DNA from: an uncultured Myxococcales bacterium
GTDB taxonomy: Bacteria; Myxococcota_A; UBA9042; DTJE01
NCBI GenBank assembly: GCA_903936705.1
Contig: CAIZWN010000054.1
Span: forward strand, 1-64,000
Reading direction: 5' to 3'
DNA length: 64,000 nucleotides
A program made the position numbers and the translations under genes. The notes beneath the pieces were generated by a model that worked only from the letters and a program-made list of their open reading frames with translations, had not been told where the DNA came from and ran no database searches. How positions within the stretch are numbered: position 1 is the stretch's first letter; each line of letters starts with the position of its first letter. This document shows positions 2,656 through 11,318 of the stretch, in pieces.

Positions 2656-2915
2656 GGCTGGACCCGGCCGGTCGCCACGCAGCGTGGGCAGGAACCAAGG
2701 CCCCTGACTGCTGTCGTTCGCCAAAACTCCGTCGGCTTTGAAAGCGCAGCGTTTCCCATTTCGGCACTGCGCAAGCGCTGGTCCCGTTCGCATGGCGTCA
2801 GGCGAACCAGGGCCGCCAGCAGAACGATTCCTTGCGTCTTCCGCACTTGCACACCAGACCATCGGGGACGATGATCGCGATGACGCGCGATACAGCGCCT
2901 TCCAGGGAGGACGTC

Positions 2916-5435
2916 ATGGCGACGACCGGAACGGTCCGGCCCAAGGTGCCAATCAAGCAGCCTCACAGCCTGTCACCGCGGGTCAAATGGCTGCGCGACT
3001 ACTTCTTCGAGGGCGTAAGGCGACCCTGGAACAACGAATTCCAGTGCTTCACCACCGGGACTGCCTGGGACGTCGTGTACGACGAGGTCACGTACTACAT
3101 CGTTCCGGAAACATACGCCTTTCTTCAACCTTTCCGGGCGTCGGCGCTGCAGGCGGCGCGACCGGTGCCCCTGCCCGCGGACTTCTGGGGGCTGACCCTG
3201 CCCGAACGGCGAGCCTGGTTCATCCGAGAGGTGATGGTCAGCCAGGTCCCGCAGGAGATCCTGCCGGGCGACCTGGTGGCCGGGGGACGCTTCAACATCC
3301 TGGCCTCGCGCTGCTGGAAACGCGACGAGGTGAAGGGGCGCGACAAGGAACTGCTGGGATCGCGTGGCACCCGCGCGGCAGTCAAGGAATTCCACGACCG
3401 CGGCTTCGGGAACGCCGGCGCCACCAGCGGACACCTGATCCCGGACTACGCAAGCGTGCTGACCAAGGGGTGGCGCGGGATCCACCAGGAATTGCAGGCC
3501 CGACTGGACGGCATGGAACGCCGCGACCGCGATGGGCCAAAGGGCGCCCAGGTGCGGGCCATGATGACGGCAGCCACGATGCCGCGGGACCTCGCGACCA
3601 GGTACGCCGAGGTGTGCCGACAAGCGGCGGGGCGCGAGTCCGACCAGGCCAGGCAGCAGGAACTGCACCAGATGGCGGCAAATCTGGACCGCGTCCCATG
3701 GGAACCGGCTAACACGTTCTGGGAAGCGATCCAGGCCGTGTGGCTGTCCCACATGCTGGTCCTCAGCGACGAGAACTACCCCGGTGCCGGCGTGTCGTTC
3801 GGCCGGATGGACCAGTATCTGCTGCCTTTCTGGCAGCGATCGATCGCCGAAGGGATGCCGCGGGAATTCGGCAAGGAAGTCCTGCGCTGCTTCTGGGTGC
3901 ACTGCAATACGGTCTACGACGCCATGATCCAGGTGGGTGGAAACCAGGGCATCACGGCAGGCTTCGGCCAGTTGATAACGCTGTCGGGAATTGGGGCCGA
4001 CGGCTGCGACGCCACAAACGACCTGACCTGGGCGTTCCTGGAGGTCGTCGACGAGATGACTCCAATCCTTGAACCAAAGCCCAACGTACGGCTGCACCGA
4101 GGGTCTCCGGAAGCCCTGCTGGACAAGGTGGTCGACATGGTCGCCGGCAGTCAGGGGGCGCCCTTCCTGCTGAACTTCGACGAACGCTCGATGGCCGGCA
4201 TGATGCGCGAGGCCGATCGTGCCGGGGTACAGGACCGCATCAACGCCGGAAATGTTTGGGACTACGCGTCGGTAGGGTGCCTGGAAAACACGATGGTCGG
4301 CAACGACCGATCGGGCACCGTCGATGTAAACCTGAACCTGCTGAAGGCTGTCGAGCTGGCACTGACCGGGGGATGGGACCTCGTCCCGGCGGTTGACCCG
4401 GTAATGGGCGCGACGTACCCGCGGCGTCAGGTCGGGGCCGACACCGGCGACGCGACAAGGTTCGAAACGTTCGAGGCGTTCTTCGGCGCTTATGAAACGC
4501 AGACACGCCAGATGATCCGGCAAGCGGTCGAACTGTACGAACGCAGCGAATCGGTTCGCGCGCGGTTCTGCCCGACGCCGTACGTTTCCTGCCTCGTACG
4601 CGGGTGCGCCGACAAGGCGCTGGACGTGACGCAAGGCGGTGCCGAGTTGTCCTTCGTGACGATCGAGGGCGTCACGTTTGCAACCACGGTGGACTCGCTG
4701 CTGGCAGTGAAACACCTGGTTTTCGACGAACAACGCTGCACGATGGGCGAATTGACCCAGGCACTTAGGGACAACTGGGTCGGACACCAGAAGTTGCAGG
4801 CGTTCGCGCAGCACAGGTCGCCGAAATACGGACGCGATGACGACGCAGCAGACGCGATGGCCCTGCGCGTGATGGAACTGTGGGCCGAGGAAACGTGGCA
4901 CCACCGGACGCGCAGCACCGGGCGGCAGTTCAGACCCGGGATGCTGTCGTGGAACTACTGGGCCGGCGACGGATTCGTGATGGCGGCCAGTCCCGACGGC
5001 AGACCCAAGGGTAAGTTCCTGTCGAATGCAATCTGCCCGACCGACGGCGCCGACACGAAAGGGCCCACGGCGAACACGAACTCGGTCGGCAAGGCACTTG
5101 GCGGCAAGGCTCCAGGCGGCAACGGGGACTGGGGCGAGTGGCTGAACCTGCTGCCGAACGGGGCCAGCCACACCATCACCTTCAACCCATCGATGCTGCG
5201 AGACCCGGAACACCAGGCAAAATTCAAGGCGTTCCTGAGGGGATACGTCGAGAACGGCGGCACGGCGCTGCAGATGAACGTTCTTGACCCGGACGTGCTG
5301 CGCGAGGCGCAGAGCCATCCCGCAGACTATCGGCACCTGCTGGTCCGGGTGACTGGCTACAACGCCTATTTCACGTCGATCGGGCGCGAGCTTCAGGACG
5401 AAATCATCGCGCGTGAAAGCCACCGCGGGGTGTGA
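2916..5435 (+). CDS. Glycyl radical enzyme of the pyruvate formate-lyase superfamily, subclass unassigned
   Basis: An 839-residue enzyme with both hallmarks of the superfamily. The thiyl radical site is VGCLE (Cys455, Glu457), and the C-terminal glycyl loop RVTGYNAYF carries the radical Gly814. The GCxE pattern is that of dehydratase, lyase and decarboxylase members, not the adjacent Cys-Cys of true pyruvate formate-lyase, so this enzyme probably cleaves a C-O, C-N, C-S or C-C bond of a small metabolite. ATG 2916 has GGGAGG 5 nt upstream; earlier in-frame starts at 2832, 2871 and 2880 lack this. The activase begins 13 bp after the stop and a flavin-type protein follows. No shell protein or dedicated transporter is adjacent. 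The radical would be destroyed by oxygen, which points to an anaerobic lifestyle. Confidence 0.9.
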   Translation: MATTGTVRPKVPIKQPHSLSPRVKWLRDYFFEGVRRPWNNEFQCFTTGTAWDVVYDEVTYYIVPETYAFLQPFRASALQAARPVPLPADFWGLTLPERRAWFIREVMVSQVPQEILPGDLVAGGRFNILASRCWKRDEVKGRDKELLGSRGTRAAVKEFHDRGFGNAGATSGHLIPDYASVLTKGWRGIHQELQARLDGMERRDRDGPKGAQVRAMMTAATMPRDLATRYAEVCRQAAGRESDQARQQELHQMAANLDRVPWEPANTFWEAIQAVWLSHMLVLSDENYPGAGVSFGRMDQYLLPFWQRSIAEGMPREFGKEVLRCFWVHCNTVYDAMIQVGGNQGITAGFGQLITLSGIGADGCDATNDLTWAFLEVVDEMTPILEPKPNVRLHRGSPEALLDKVVDMVAGSQGAPFLLNFDERSMAGMMREADRAGVQDRINAGNVWDYASVGCLENTMVGNDRSGTVDVNLNLLKAVELALTGGWDLVPAVDPVMGATYPRRQVGADTGDATRFETFEAFFGAYETQTRQMIRQAVELYERSESVRARFCPTPYVSCLVRGCADKALDVTQGGAELSFVTIEGVTFATTVDSLLAVKHLVFDEQRCTMGELTQALRDNWVGHQKLQAFAQHRSPKYGRDDDAADAMALRVMELWAEETWHHRTRSTGRQFRPGMLSWNYWAGDGFVMAASPDGRPKGKFLSNAICPTDGADTKGPTANTNSVGKALGGKAPGGNGDWGEWLNLLPNGASHTITFNPSMLRDPEHQAKFKAFLRGYVENGGTALQMNVLDPDVLREAQSHPADYRHLLVRVTGYNAYFTSIGRELQDEIIARESHRGV

Positions 5436-5448
5436 CCTGGGAGAACCG

Positions 5449-6372
5449 ATGACCGGGCGCGTGCTGAACATCCAGCGAATGTCCACCGAGGACGGGCCGG
5501 GGATCCGGACTACCGTGTTCCTGAAGGGCTGCCCGCTGCGCTGCACGTGGTGCCACAACCCAGAAAGCATGTCCGCCGCAGCACAGGTCGTCGTGCGCGA
5601 GGAACGCTGCATAAAGTGCGGGTCCTGCCTGGAGGTATGCCCGCTGGAGTGCGACACGTCGGTCTGCAAGGCGTGCGGGCTGTGTGTAGACGACTGCCCT
5701 ACGGCAGCAAGGGAACTCCTTGGGTGCGACTGGGAAGTCGGCAACCTTGTCCGCGAGGTTGCCAAGGATCGAGCCTACTTCAAGACGTCCGGTGGAGGCG
5801 TAACGATTTCCGGCGGCGAGCCATCAATGCAGGCCGGGTTCACGGGGGCCTTCCTTGCGCGCTGTCGCGACGAGGGACTGCACACGGCACTGGACACGTG
5901 TGGCGCGTGCGGGCCTGATGTGCTGACAAGCCTTGCCGGCATGACTCGATTGGTGCTGTTCGACCTGAAGCTTTTCGATACCACGCGCCACCGGGAGTAC
6001 ACCGGCCAGGGCAACGAACGGATTCTAGAGAACCTGGCGACCCTTGCCGCCTGGATGGATGGGCAGCAGGCCCCGCCGTCTTTATGGGTAAGGACTCCAC
6101 TGGTACCTGGGGCCACGGCAGATGACACAAACATCCGGGACATCGGAAGGTTCCTGGCCGACAGCGTCGGGACGCGCCTTGAAAAATGGGAACTGTGTGC
6201 GTTCAACAACCTTTGCCGCGAACAGTATCGCCGGCTGGGAAGGACATGGGAGTTCGCGACCGAACCACTGATGCGCCGCGAAGACCTGCTGCACCTGCAG
6301 GAAACGGCCGCGGCATCAGGTGTGGACCCGACAATCATCCGGGTGACGGGCGCATCCCGACTGGAGGAATAG
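5449..6372 (+). CDS. Glycyl radical enzyme activase (radical SAM)
   Basis: A 307-residue radical SAM protein that would use S-adenosylmethionine to abstract hydrogen from Gly814 of the upstream enzyme. The cluster motif CxxxCxxC is Cys28, Cys32 and Cys35 (GCPLRCTWC), and the SAM-contacting ISGGEP follows. Between them, around residues 53-86, lies an inserted bicluster ferredoxin with CIKCGSCLEVCP and CKACGLCVDDCP, as in activases of the dehydratase, decarboxylase and succinate synthase groups but not in PflA. ATG 5449 follows GGGAG by 5 nt; the alternative GTG at 5413 would overlap the enzyme gene. Co-transcription with its substrate enzyme is evident from the 13-bp gap. Confidence 0.93.
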   Translation: MTGRVLNIQRMSTEDGPGIRTTVFLKGCPLRCTWCHNPESMSAAAQVVVREERCIKCGSCLEVCPLECDTSVCKACGLCVDDCPTAARELLGCDWEVGNLVREVAKDRAYFKTSGGGVTISGGEPSMQAGFTGAFLARCRDEGLHTALDTCGACGPDVLTSLAGMTRLVLFDLKLFDTTRHREYTGQGNERILENLATLAAWMDGQQAPPSLWVRTPLVPGATADDTNIRDIGRFLADSVGTRLEKWELCAFNNLCREQYRRLGRTWEFATEPLMRREDLLHLQETAAASGVDPTIIRVTGASRLEE

Positions 6373-8706: not shown

Positions 8707-9351
8707 CTACGGCACCAACACGGAAGGCAGGTAAGTCACATCGATTTGAGTTCGCGTGCTGTCGACCAGCATGCAGCGCGGTTCGTAGAACGAAAGATTG
8801 GCGGCCCGACCATCCAGCGACTTCAGGACCAGCGTGGCAACCACCACATCCCCGTCCAAAGCGGTGTTCGCCTCGTAGTAAAGGTGGGCCAGGCCGATTG
8901 CCAAGGACCCCGGACGAACCTCTGCCGCCTTGTAGACCGCCTCGCCTGCCCCCTCGTCACCAAGGATCGGCGCCGGCACGACCGACACCAGCGACAGCGC
9001 GGCGGGGTCCCACTCGACCCGCAGCGCGATCCCGAAAACCGCCTTCACGTCCCTGGCAACGACCTCGACACGAAAGGCATCCCCCTCGCGCCCCGCCCCC
9101 TGGAACCGGAATGAAGCTGGCGGAATGTAGGCAGCCGGCACGACTGTTTCACCCTGGAATACTTCAGTCGGCGCTCCTTCAAGGTCCACGATGTCTGTGG
9201 TGATCGCGTCCGACATCGACCCATTGTCCACACCTCCGGGATCCACAGTCCCCGGATCCGCAGGAGGCCTGACGCACAGCGATTTCTTGTCGCACCCGGA
9301 AACTGCCCCGATTGTCAGCATCAGCACTGCGCCTGCCAGGAATCGCCTCAT
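8707..9351 (-). CDS. Lipoprotein with a cohesin-like domain
   Basis: A 214-residue lipoprotein: signal peptide with lipobox GAVSGC (Cys20), a short Asp/Gly/Pro spacer, then a domain from about residue 78 to 212. That domain has the cohesin/carbohydrate-binding beta-sandwich pattern: VKAVFGIALRVEWDPAALSL, then GSLAIGLAHL and ALDGDVVVATLVLKSL. Cohesins bind dockerin domains, and the gene directly upstream in the operon encodes a dockerin-bearing peptidase. The start codon overlaps that gene's stop as ATGA, with GGAGG 6 nt upstream, so the two are translationally coupled. Cohesin assignment is by motif and context and needs structure-based confirmation. Confidence 0.65.
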   Translation of the reverse strand: MRRFLAGAVLMLTIGAVSGCDKKSLCVRPPADPGTVDPGGVDNGSMSDAITTDIVDLEGAPTEVFQGETVVPAAYIPPASFRFQGAGREGDAFRVEVVARDVKAVFGIALRVEWDPAALSLVSVVPAPILGDEGAGEAVYKAAEVRPGSLAIGLAHLYYEANTALDGDVVVATLVLKSLDGRAANLSFYEPRCMLVDSTRTQIDVTYLPSVLVP

Positions 9352-11318
9352 GGGACACCTCCATTCGACGTCTTGCCAAAGGCGTCCGTCACATACGAAA
9401 GGTCAACCTCATCCACAATCGCGTTCGCATCGAAATCAGCCGAGGACTGGAAGTTCTGGGCATTCCCAAATAGGCTCCCGCCCAATGACCATGCGACATA
9501 GACAAGGTCAATCCCGTCCACCTCGCCCGAAAGATCCATGTCACCGGAAAGCCCCGGTCCGACACGCTTCAGCAGGTTCCTGGCAGGGTCGAACCGGACG
9601 CGCGCCAGCCGCGAGTCCAGGTCGAACGCGAAAGACTGGTCAGCCTTGTCAACCATGACCTCGTGGACAATCTCGCCCTTTTCCGTGACCAGGCCCAACT
9701 GGACCGGCATCTTGAACGAGTTGTACTTGTTGCTGGGTGTCTGCCTGATCCTGACCGTCGCCTGCAAGCCCCCGGATTCCTTCGTCTGGCGAGTCACATC
9801 GACCGTGTAGATCGGATAGCCCTTCTTCTGTACCCAACTGGTGAACAGGTCAGTCAGGTCCTTGCCCGAGGCCGCTTCCAGGTAGGCCTTCAGCCCGTCG
9901 GTATCGTAGTACGCTTCCTTTCCGGCCAGATCTGCGTGCATTGCCTTCAGCGCCTGGTTCCACACGTCGGTGCCGACGTACTTTTCGATGACATGGCAGA
10001 CGATCGCCCCCTTGTAGTAGGTGACCAACTGGTACACCTGGCTGTCGCTGACCGAGGCCGAGGCGACCGAGGACAGACCGTAGTCGCTGACATCACTTAC
10101 GAAGTAACGATACAAATCGCCGTAATAATTGTAGATAGCCGTTGGGTAGTCAGGCCCCTCGACCGTGCCCATGTACTCGGTGGACAGATACTCCGCAAAG
10201 CCCTCGGACAGCCAGGCCGCAAAAGCGTCGTTGTTCTGGATCATGTCGGGAAACCACTGGTGGCCCAGTTCGTGGGCGAACAACGCCGTCCGCTGGGACC
10301 CGCCGTGCCTGAACATGCCGTCGGGAATCCACAGCAGAGCCGGCCATCCGAAGGCGGCCCCGGCATCGTTGGTCACCTGACAGGCATCCATCTTGGGGAA
10401 CAGGAATGCGCCTATCCTTTCCGAGTAGTAGTCCAGAACCGACTTCATGTCGCCCAGAACCTCGGGCACGCCGGCCTGAACCCTGGAGTCAGACCCCATC
10501 GTGAATGTCCGGATGGGGTCCACACCGCGGGGAATAATGGCCTGCACATACGACGCGATACCGAAGGACCGGCTGTCGGTCGGAAAATCCTGGACGATGC
10601 GATGAATCTCCTTGCCATCCTGAACAGGACTGACCGAAACGGTCACGCCCGTCGCCGCAACCGAAAGCCCCGCAGGAAGGGTCAGCCGCAGGTCGGCCGT
10701 GGCGAAATCCCTGGCCATGCCACCCGGCAGGAAAACGTCCCCGGCCAGATAGTTCACATCGCCCCAGGCGCATAGGTTCACCGAAATCGCCCCCTGAATC
10801 GAGCAATCTGGGACCCCGGAAAGTCGAAGAACCAGGTCCATCCTGTCGCCCTTTGCCGCAATGGTGGCCGGCGAAACCTTGGCCATGTAGTACCCCTGAA
10901 AGTCGCCAGAGGTCCACTCAATCGGGGACCCGTCCGGGTGCTCGATCGCCAGGAAAGGCAGGAAGGACAGCAGGCTGAACGAATTGGTCCCATCCTCCAG
11001 GAACGAAACGGTCTGGCGCACCACCACATCCAGCGAGTTGGCAACCGGATCGATCGCGACGTCGCCATCCATGTGCACGATGCGAACAAGTCCCTCGGTC
11101 GCAGCCTTCGCGGACATCACGGCCAAGCGACGCCGAAGTTCCTGCATCCGCGCAAGTTCCATAGGTCGGACCATCCCCGTCTCGAACCCAAGCCGGGCCT
11201 TCACGTCACGGGCCGCCAGCGCATCGACAGTCCCCGACAATTCGATCCCGGATGCGCTGCCGACCAGTGAAAGAGCCGAGGCCAGTACGACCAGACCGCC
11301 ACCAACGAATCGGTTCAA
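9348..11318 (-). CDS. Secreted M1-family metallopeptidase with C-terminal dockerin type I-like domain
   Basis: A 656-residue peptidase. A TTG start at 11318 has GGAG about 6 nt upstream and yields a clean signal peptide (VVLASALSLVGSASG). The N-terminal beta domain leads to the gluzincin site HELGH (His349, Glu350, His353) with third ligand Glu372 in SEGFAEY, as in M1 aminopeptidases. The last 65 residues contain two Ca-binding dockerin repeats: DMDLSGEVDGIDLVYVAWSL and DFDANAIVDEVDLSYVTDAF. M1 enzymes remove N-terminal residues from peptides. The downstream cohesin-like lipoprotein overlaps by 4 nt and is the likely anchor. The canonical GAMEN motif is not obvious (GAAFGWP lies nearby), so exact specificity is open. 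Confidence 0.85.
   Translation of the reverse strand: MNRFVGGGLVVLASALSLVGSASGIELSGTVDALAARDVKARLGFETGMVRPMELARMQELRRRLAVMSAKAATEGLVRIVHMDGDVAIDPVANSLDVVVRQTVSFLEDGTNSFSLLSFLPFLAIEHPDGSPIEWTSGDFQGYYMAKVSPATIAAKGDRMDLVLRLSGVPDCSIQGAISVNLCAWGDVNYLAGDVFLPGGMARDFATADLRLTLPAGLSVAATGVTVSVSPVQDGKEIHRIVQDFPTDSRSFGIASYVQAIIPRGVDPIRTFTMGSDSRVQAGVPEVLGDMKSVLDYYSERIGAFLFPKMDACQVTNDAGAAFGWPALLWIPDGMFRHGGSQRTALFAHELGHQWFPDMIQNNDAFAAWLSEGFAEYLSTEYMGTVEGPDYPTAIYNYYGDLYRYFVSDVSDYGLSSVASASVSDSQVYQLVTYYKGAIVCHVIEKYVGTDVWNQALKAMHADLAGKEAYYDTDGLKAYLEAASGKDLTDLFTSWVQKKGYPIYTVDVTRQTKESGGLQATVRIRQTPSNKYNSFKMPVQLGLVTEKGEIVHEVMVDKADQSFAFDLDSRLARVRFDPARNLLKRVGPGLSGDMDLSGEVDGIDLVYVAWSLGGSLFGNAQNFQSSADFDANAIVDEVDLSYVTDAFGKTSNGGVP

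Follow-up and report, generated by a model that had tools for sequence, protein, structure and literature searches.

A putative cohesin-dockerin tether, encoded by two overlapping genes, for a secreted M1-family peptidase in Myxococcota_A

A gene pair in an uncultured Myxococcales bacterium raises the question of whether a cohesin and a dockerin can serve one another alone, as a tether for a single enzyme. Few interactions are known to be tighter than that of cohesin with dockerin, which, to our knowledge, has been studied almost exclusively in assemblies that degrade cellulose and glycans. The pair lies in a stretch of 64,000 nucleotides at the start of contig CAIZWN010000054.1 (hereafter, the window), for which a preliminary description had proposed a dockerin-bearing peptidase coupled to a cohesin-like lipoprotein. 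Our analysis confirmed both genes on the minus strand: a secreted M1-family zinc metallopeptidase with a C-terminal dockerin (9348-11318, 656 aa) is followed by a lipoprotein with one cohesin domain (8707-9351, 214 aa). The proposed overlap was also found, in that ATGA at 9348-9351 (minus strand), preceded by GGAGGTG, forms both the peptidase stop and the lipoprotein start. The likeliest start of the peptidase is the TTG at 11318, with CTGGAG just upstream as the ribosome-binding site, in agreement with the boundary originally given for the pair. The peptidase begins with a signal peptide, which is of the Sec type by eye, followed by an M1 domain and a beta domain, and two calcium-loop repeats occupy its C-terminal segment. 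The closest named relatives are metagenome-assembled genomes titled uncultured Myxococcales and Anaeromyxobacter, which places the pair outside the cellulosomal clostridia, as had been supposed.

The downstream neighbour of the pair encodes a DJ-1/PfpI-family protein and the upstream neighbour a divergent AAA ATPase. The two congeneric genomes retain both, and the shorter flanks searched in more distant family members gave no match to DJ-1 or AAA; the two neighbours are unrelated in function to the pair. Elsewhere in the window (2832-6372, plus strand), the reading frames alone suggest a pyruvate-formate-lyase-like glycyl radical enzyme and an overlapping activase-like gene.

The C-terminal 68 residues of the peptidase (residues 589-656; 9351-9554, minus strand) carry two tandem F-hand calcium loops with Asp/Asn-type ligands at positions 1, 3, 5, 9 and 12. 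In loop 1, DMDLSGEVDGIDL (9504-9542, minus strand), D5, G10, D13 and D16 (loop positions 1, 6, 9 and 12) were invariant among 29 sequences; in loop 2, DFDANAIVDEVDL (9399-9437, minus strand), D40 was invariant and D51 was present in >90% of the same sequences, and position 3 is degenerate in many relatives. A search of the PDB with a profile of the family's tails (A3) returned dockerins as the best matches (2y3n_B, 8e-8; 8ajy_B, 2.4e-5), followed by more dockerins, with calmodulins far behind. When the dockerin profile was built without the window's taxonomic order, the window's tail outscored all 5000 shuffles of itself, so the profile and the shuffles agree with the two dockerin repeats read at the peptidase end in the preliminary description. 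Pfam Dockerin_1 (PF00404) gave no match over its cut-off in the window's peptidase or in the whole genome, and it matched 2 of 29 family members (best, 2.5e-5). This blank reflects low sensitivity and not absence, as the family profile does find dockerins, and the tail is best described as a predicted dockerin-like module that has diverged from PF00404. The AlphaFold2 (AF2) model of the entire peptidase had a mean pLDDT of 44.

In the lipoprotein, a low-complexity linker extending to about residue 72 is followed by the predicted cohesin domain (residues 73-214; 8710-9135, minus strand). Pfam Cohesin (PF00963) matched residues 88-197 with 29.4 bits (cut-off, 24.1), and thus the profile search proposed in the preliminary description had a positive outcome; the same model matched 15 of 29 family members at E 0.1 or better. 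A single-sequence phmmer search of the PDB with the lipoprotein returned chance matches only. A profile of 29 related lipoproteins (A1) was needed; it matched solved cohesins, the best being 3l8q, a type II cohesin pair (3.6e-11). A cohesin profile made from relatives outside the window's taxonomic order found the window's lipoprotein at E 1e-12.

The fold agreed with these matches. The AF2 model of the lipoprotein, made from four sequences, has nine strands within residues 81-212, a core (residues 81-194) mostly at pLDDT 70-90 and an unstructured N-terminal linker; its overall confidence is low (mean pLDDT, 55). All 50 Foldseek matches listed come from cohesin structures (best, 1e-6), and the Foldseek and VIA-align matches to cohesins extend over residues 73-214. 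VIA-align gave Z 11.9 to 6kgf over 132 residues (rmsd, 3.2). Its runners-up, collagen-binding and pilin domains, reached Z 9 to 10, and for this reason a cohesin call from the fold alone is weaker than one from fold and sequence together. Pfam, the family profile searched against the PDB and the modelled fold all identify the domain as a cohesin, whose binding of a dockerin is putative.

The lipobox of the lipoprotein, VSG-C (residues 17-20; 9292-9303, minus strand), was recognised by eye and by pattern, as it was in most relatives. The window's lipoprotein and several others of its family have Asp at +2 after the lipidated Cys; in the remaining relatives this residue is Gly or another. Asp at this position causes inner-membrane retention in Escherichia coli; lipoprotein sorting in the window's phylum may differ from that in E. 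coli, and the lipoprotein may sit in either membrane and face either the periplasm or the outside; the surface placement of the preliminary description is one of these possibilities. Five related loci (L003, L005, L006, L008 and L018; contigs G026:C15, G026:C177, G011:C12, G012:C104 and G002:C137) contain very long frames (2578 to 9562 residues), in each of which Pfam Cohesin matches more than once; these frames may encode giant proteins of the cell surface whose repeats resemble cohesins.

Dedicated pairing of the two genes, which had been suggested from the window, was borne out by near-exclusive linkage over the phylum. We examined 30 M1-dockerin loci of the window's class, one of which was cut by a contig end, and the cohesin gene adjoined the peptidase gene in all 29 judgeable loci. 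With second copies and the other classes of the phylum included, cohesin was adjacent in 46 of 48 judgeable M1-dockerin loci, a count that includes L136, whose cohesin match is weak (9 bits) and was accepted because of the location and length of the gene. The cohesin gene is missing beside L103 and L105, each of which is an additional peptidase copy in a genome where a complete pair is present as well; L104, a third such copy, ends at a contig edge and was left out of the judgeable loci. Reciprocally, all 34 full-length cohesin-family matches from 53 genomes adjoined an M1 gene; seven weaker matches, outside the 34, align with no more of the profile than its signal-peptide region. For comparison, we inspected 11 M1 peptidases of these genomes that lack a dockerin, and none had a cohesin neighbour. 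Owing to this near-exclusive linkage, a private complex of one anchor and one enzyme is the best reading of the pair: judged from the sequences, the two genes very likely encode a dedicated cohesin-dockerin tether, in which binding would join the two products.

The order of the genes varied, the peptidase being first in 18 pairs and the cohesin first in 28. An exact 4-base overlap of start and stop (ATGA or GTGA) was present in 41 of the 46 pairs, in both gene orders, often with GGAGG just before it. The peptidase tree requires one change of order, on a branch with an SH-aLRT of 96, and the weaker cohesin tree requires two; many changes of order were rejected on these grounds. At least one swap of the two genes thus took place deep in the family, and they either stayed adjacent and coupled or became so again. 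For this reason, a selected 1:1 output is favoured over the mere inheritance of neighbours.

These arrangements also bear on the idea that the cohesin-like sandwich and the calcium loops act separately, without mutual binding, their genes being adjacent through co-regulation only. Cohesin-fold and dockerin-fold domains do have other uses; however, a reciprocal and near-exclusive linkage throughout the phylum, in both gene orders and never beside a dockerin-less M1 peptidase, would then be a strange coincidence, and we consider such independence highly improbable. A test of co-evolution by partial correlation was mixed and offers no proof: the distance correlation between cohesin and dockerin was 0.32 (partial r), compared with 0.03 to 0.21 for other parts of the peptidase, an excess that vanished in the peptidase-first subset (0.02).

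If the cohesin were instead a general adaptor for several dockerin proteins, the peptidase would simply be the one encoded next door. This explanation draws on three genomes (G001, G002 and G007) that carry a second dockerin-M1 protein without an adjacent cohesin of its own and on the giant multi-cohesin frames of several class members. The second peptidases (L103, 1241-3172; L104, 1320-3254; L105, 485-2392; all plus strand) are 29-31% identical to that of the window; two of their genomes are congeneric with the window's, and the third belongs to its family. They may use the single anchor too. In the window's own genome, however, the dockerin profile, which very divergent dockerins could escape, found the M1 peptidase only (E 0.01 or better), and a genome-wide Pfam search found the lipoprotein's cohesin only, an absence from a single genome that is weak evidence given that one Pfam cohesin search over the relatives missed the window's own gene. 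Over the phylum, every match of this profile at E 1e-7 or better, in 46 of 379 genomes and usually once per genome, was to an M1 protein; one weak match (G029:C171) sits in a protein that shows no match to M1. A general adaptor seems unlikely.

In the dedicated tether that we favour, the signal peptide would export the peptidase, and the downstream lipoprotein gene would be translated from the overlapping start. The lipid of the lipoprotein would sit in a membrane, with the C-terminal cohesin projecting on its flexible linker. The dockerin, folded around two calcium ions, would dock on the one cohesin, presumably in a calcium-dependent manner, and the envelope would thereby retain a peptidase that could otherwise diffuse away. 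With a single anchor, a single enzyme and coupled translation, a stoichiometry of about 1:1 seems plausible. Strict 1:1 linkage and translational coupling would suit an enzyme-inhibitor or enzyme-chaperone pair as well, and the cargo is always the peptidase; the lipoprotein might accordingly bind its partner by the same cohesin-dockerin contact mainly to control it at the membrane, whether by inhibiting, chaperoning or activating it, and would tether it only secondarily. The linker-plus-lipid design and the general role of cohesins point instead to an anchor, and the dockerin stands at the far C-terminus, distant in sequence from the active site. We regard a mainly regulatory role as quite unlikely.

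On the nature of the cargo, as on the surface placement, the preliminary description needed correction. Pfam Peptidase_M1 (PF01433) matched the product of 9348-11318 at 1.1e-18, and the peptidase-family profile matched 8sw0 at E 1e-38. The zinc-site motif HELGH (10260-10274, minus strand) and the distal Glu (10203-10205) form an HExxH(18)E site that is invariant in all 29 aligned sequences (H349, E350, H353 and E372 in alignment A4). The catalytic Tyr-x-Lys is likewise invariant in the 29 sequences, and its region (VTYYKG) is intact in the window. In M1 aminopeptidases, the glutamate of the GxMEN motif holds the free amino end of the substrate. At this position (10310-10361), the window reads GAAFG, with Phe in place of Glu; among the 29 aligned sequences, many read GGGYA and five read GGGES, which has Glu, and most have an aromatic residue instead. 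The M1 aminopeptidase signature has been given as GXMEN...HEXXHX18E, and some M1 members are without GXMEN (PMC2241622). The cargo had been called an aminopeptidase, a name that the replaced glutamate of the window and of most relatives does not support: it is probably not a plain aminopeptidase. The loss of this glutamate suggests an endopeptidase or an otherwise altered specificity. The HExxH...E zinc site and the catalytic tyrosine are shared with PepN and the puromycin-sensitive aminopeptidase; unlike these, the window's peptidase is shorter, has Phe for the GxMEN Glu, is without the usual C-terminal helical domain and ends in a dockerin.

With the type I/II cohesin-dockerin assembly of cellulosomes (Acetivibrio and Clostridium), the pair has in common the cohesin fold, a duplicated calcium-loop dockerin at the C-terminus of the enzyme and the presumed anchoring of an enzyme via cohesin. 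It differs from them in having neither a multi-cohesin scaffoldin nor a carbohydrate enzyme; the anchor is a lipoprotein and the cargo a peptidase. A cellulosome is defined by a multi-cohesin scaffoldin together with many dockerin enzymes, whereas one cohesin and one dockerin protein were found in this genome.

That cohesins and dockerins also occur outside cellulosomes is established (Peer et al. 2009, as cited in PMC9012536), and cohesin and dockerin proteins have been reported in syntrophic sulfate reducers (PMC10553843). The non-cellulosomal cohesins of Archaeoglobus fulgidus (2xdh) and of Clostridium perfringens glycosidases (2vo8 and 2jh2) were among the fold matches of the window's domain. 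In contrast to such cohesins and dockerins, the present pair forms an operon of two genes that is private to one peptidase and is found in many families of one phylum. Dockerin-bearing peptidases are known from the scaffoldin system of Ruminococcus flavefaciens (PMC3573020) and, as S8 and C25 peptidases with a 3755-aa scaffoldin, from Cloacimonadota (PMC8542988); these are also carried by dockerins, but they dock on large scaffoldins that serve many enzymes in common, and they belong to families other than M1. In the literature searched, with most subscription journals outside its coverage, no private two-gene pair of a cohesin and an M1-dockerin peptidase was described. Non-cellulosomal pairs being already known, what is new here is the private, operon-encoded, single-cargo form spread within one phylum.

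It is likely that this form is a phylum-wide single-cargo system at the envelope of often uncultured myxobacteria, composed of one lipoprotein anchor and one M1-like peptidase without the aminopeptidase signature, with a second peptidase sharing the anchor in some species; it would then embody the cellulosome principle on the smallest scale found in nature. Conserved across many families and in two orders, such a private pair would represent a module serving simply to hold one secreted enzyme at the cell. The phylum offers dozens of divergent natural cohesin-dockerin pairs in which the operon gives the identity of the partner. They make cohesin-dockerin specificity, a long-standing question, directly testable and are new candidates for orthogonal pairs in protein engineering.

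One further frame was seen beside the pair. It was not seen in the window's family; in three loci of other classes (L129, L131 and L132), a short Rieske-like protein (CNHAGASLSEG...CPMHGYVF) is encoded just before the M1-cohesin pair.
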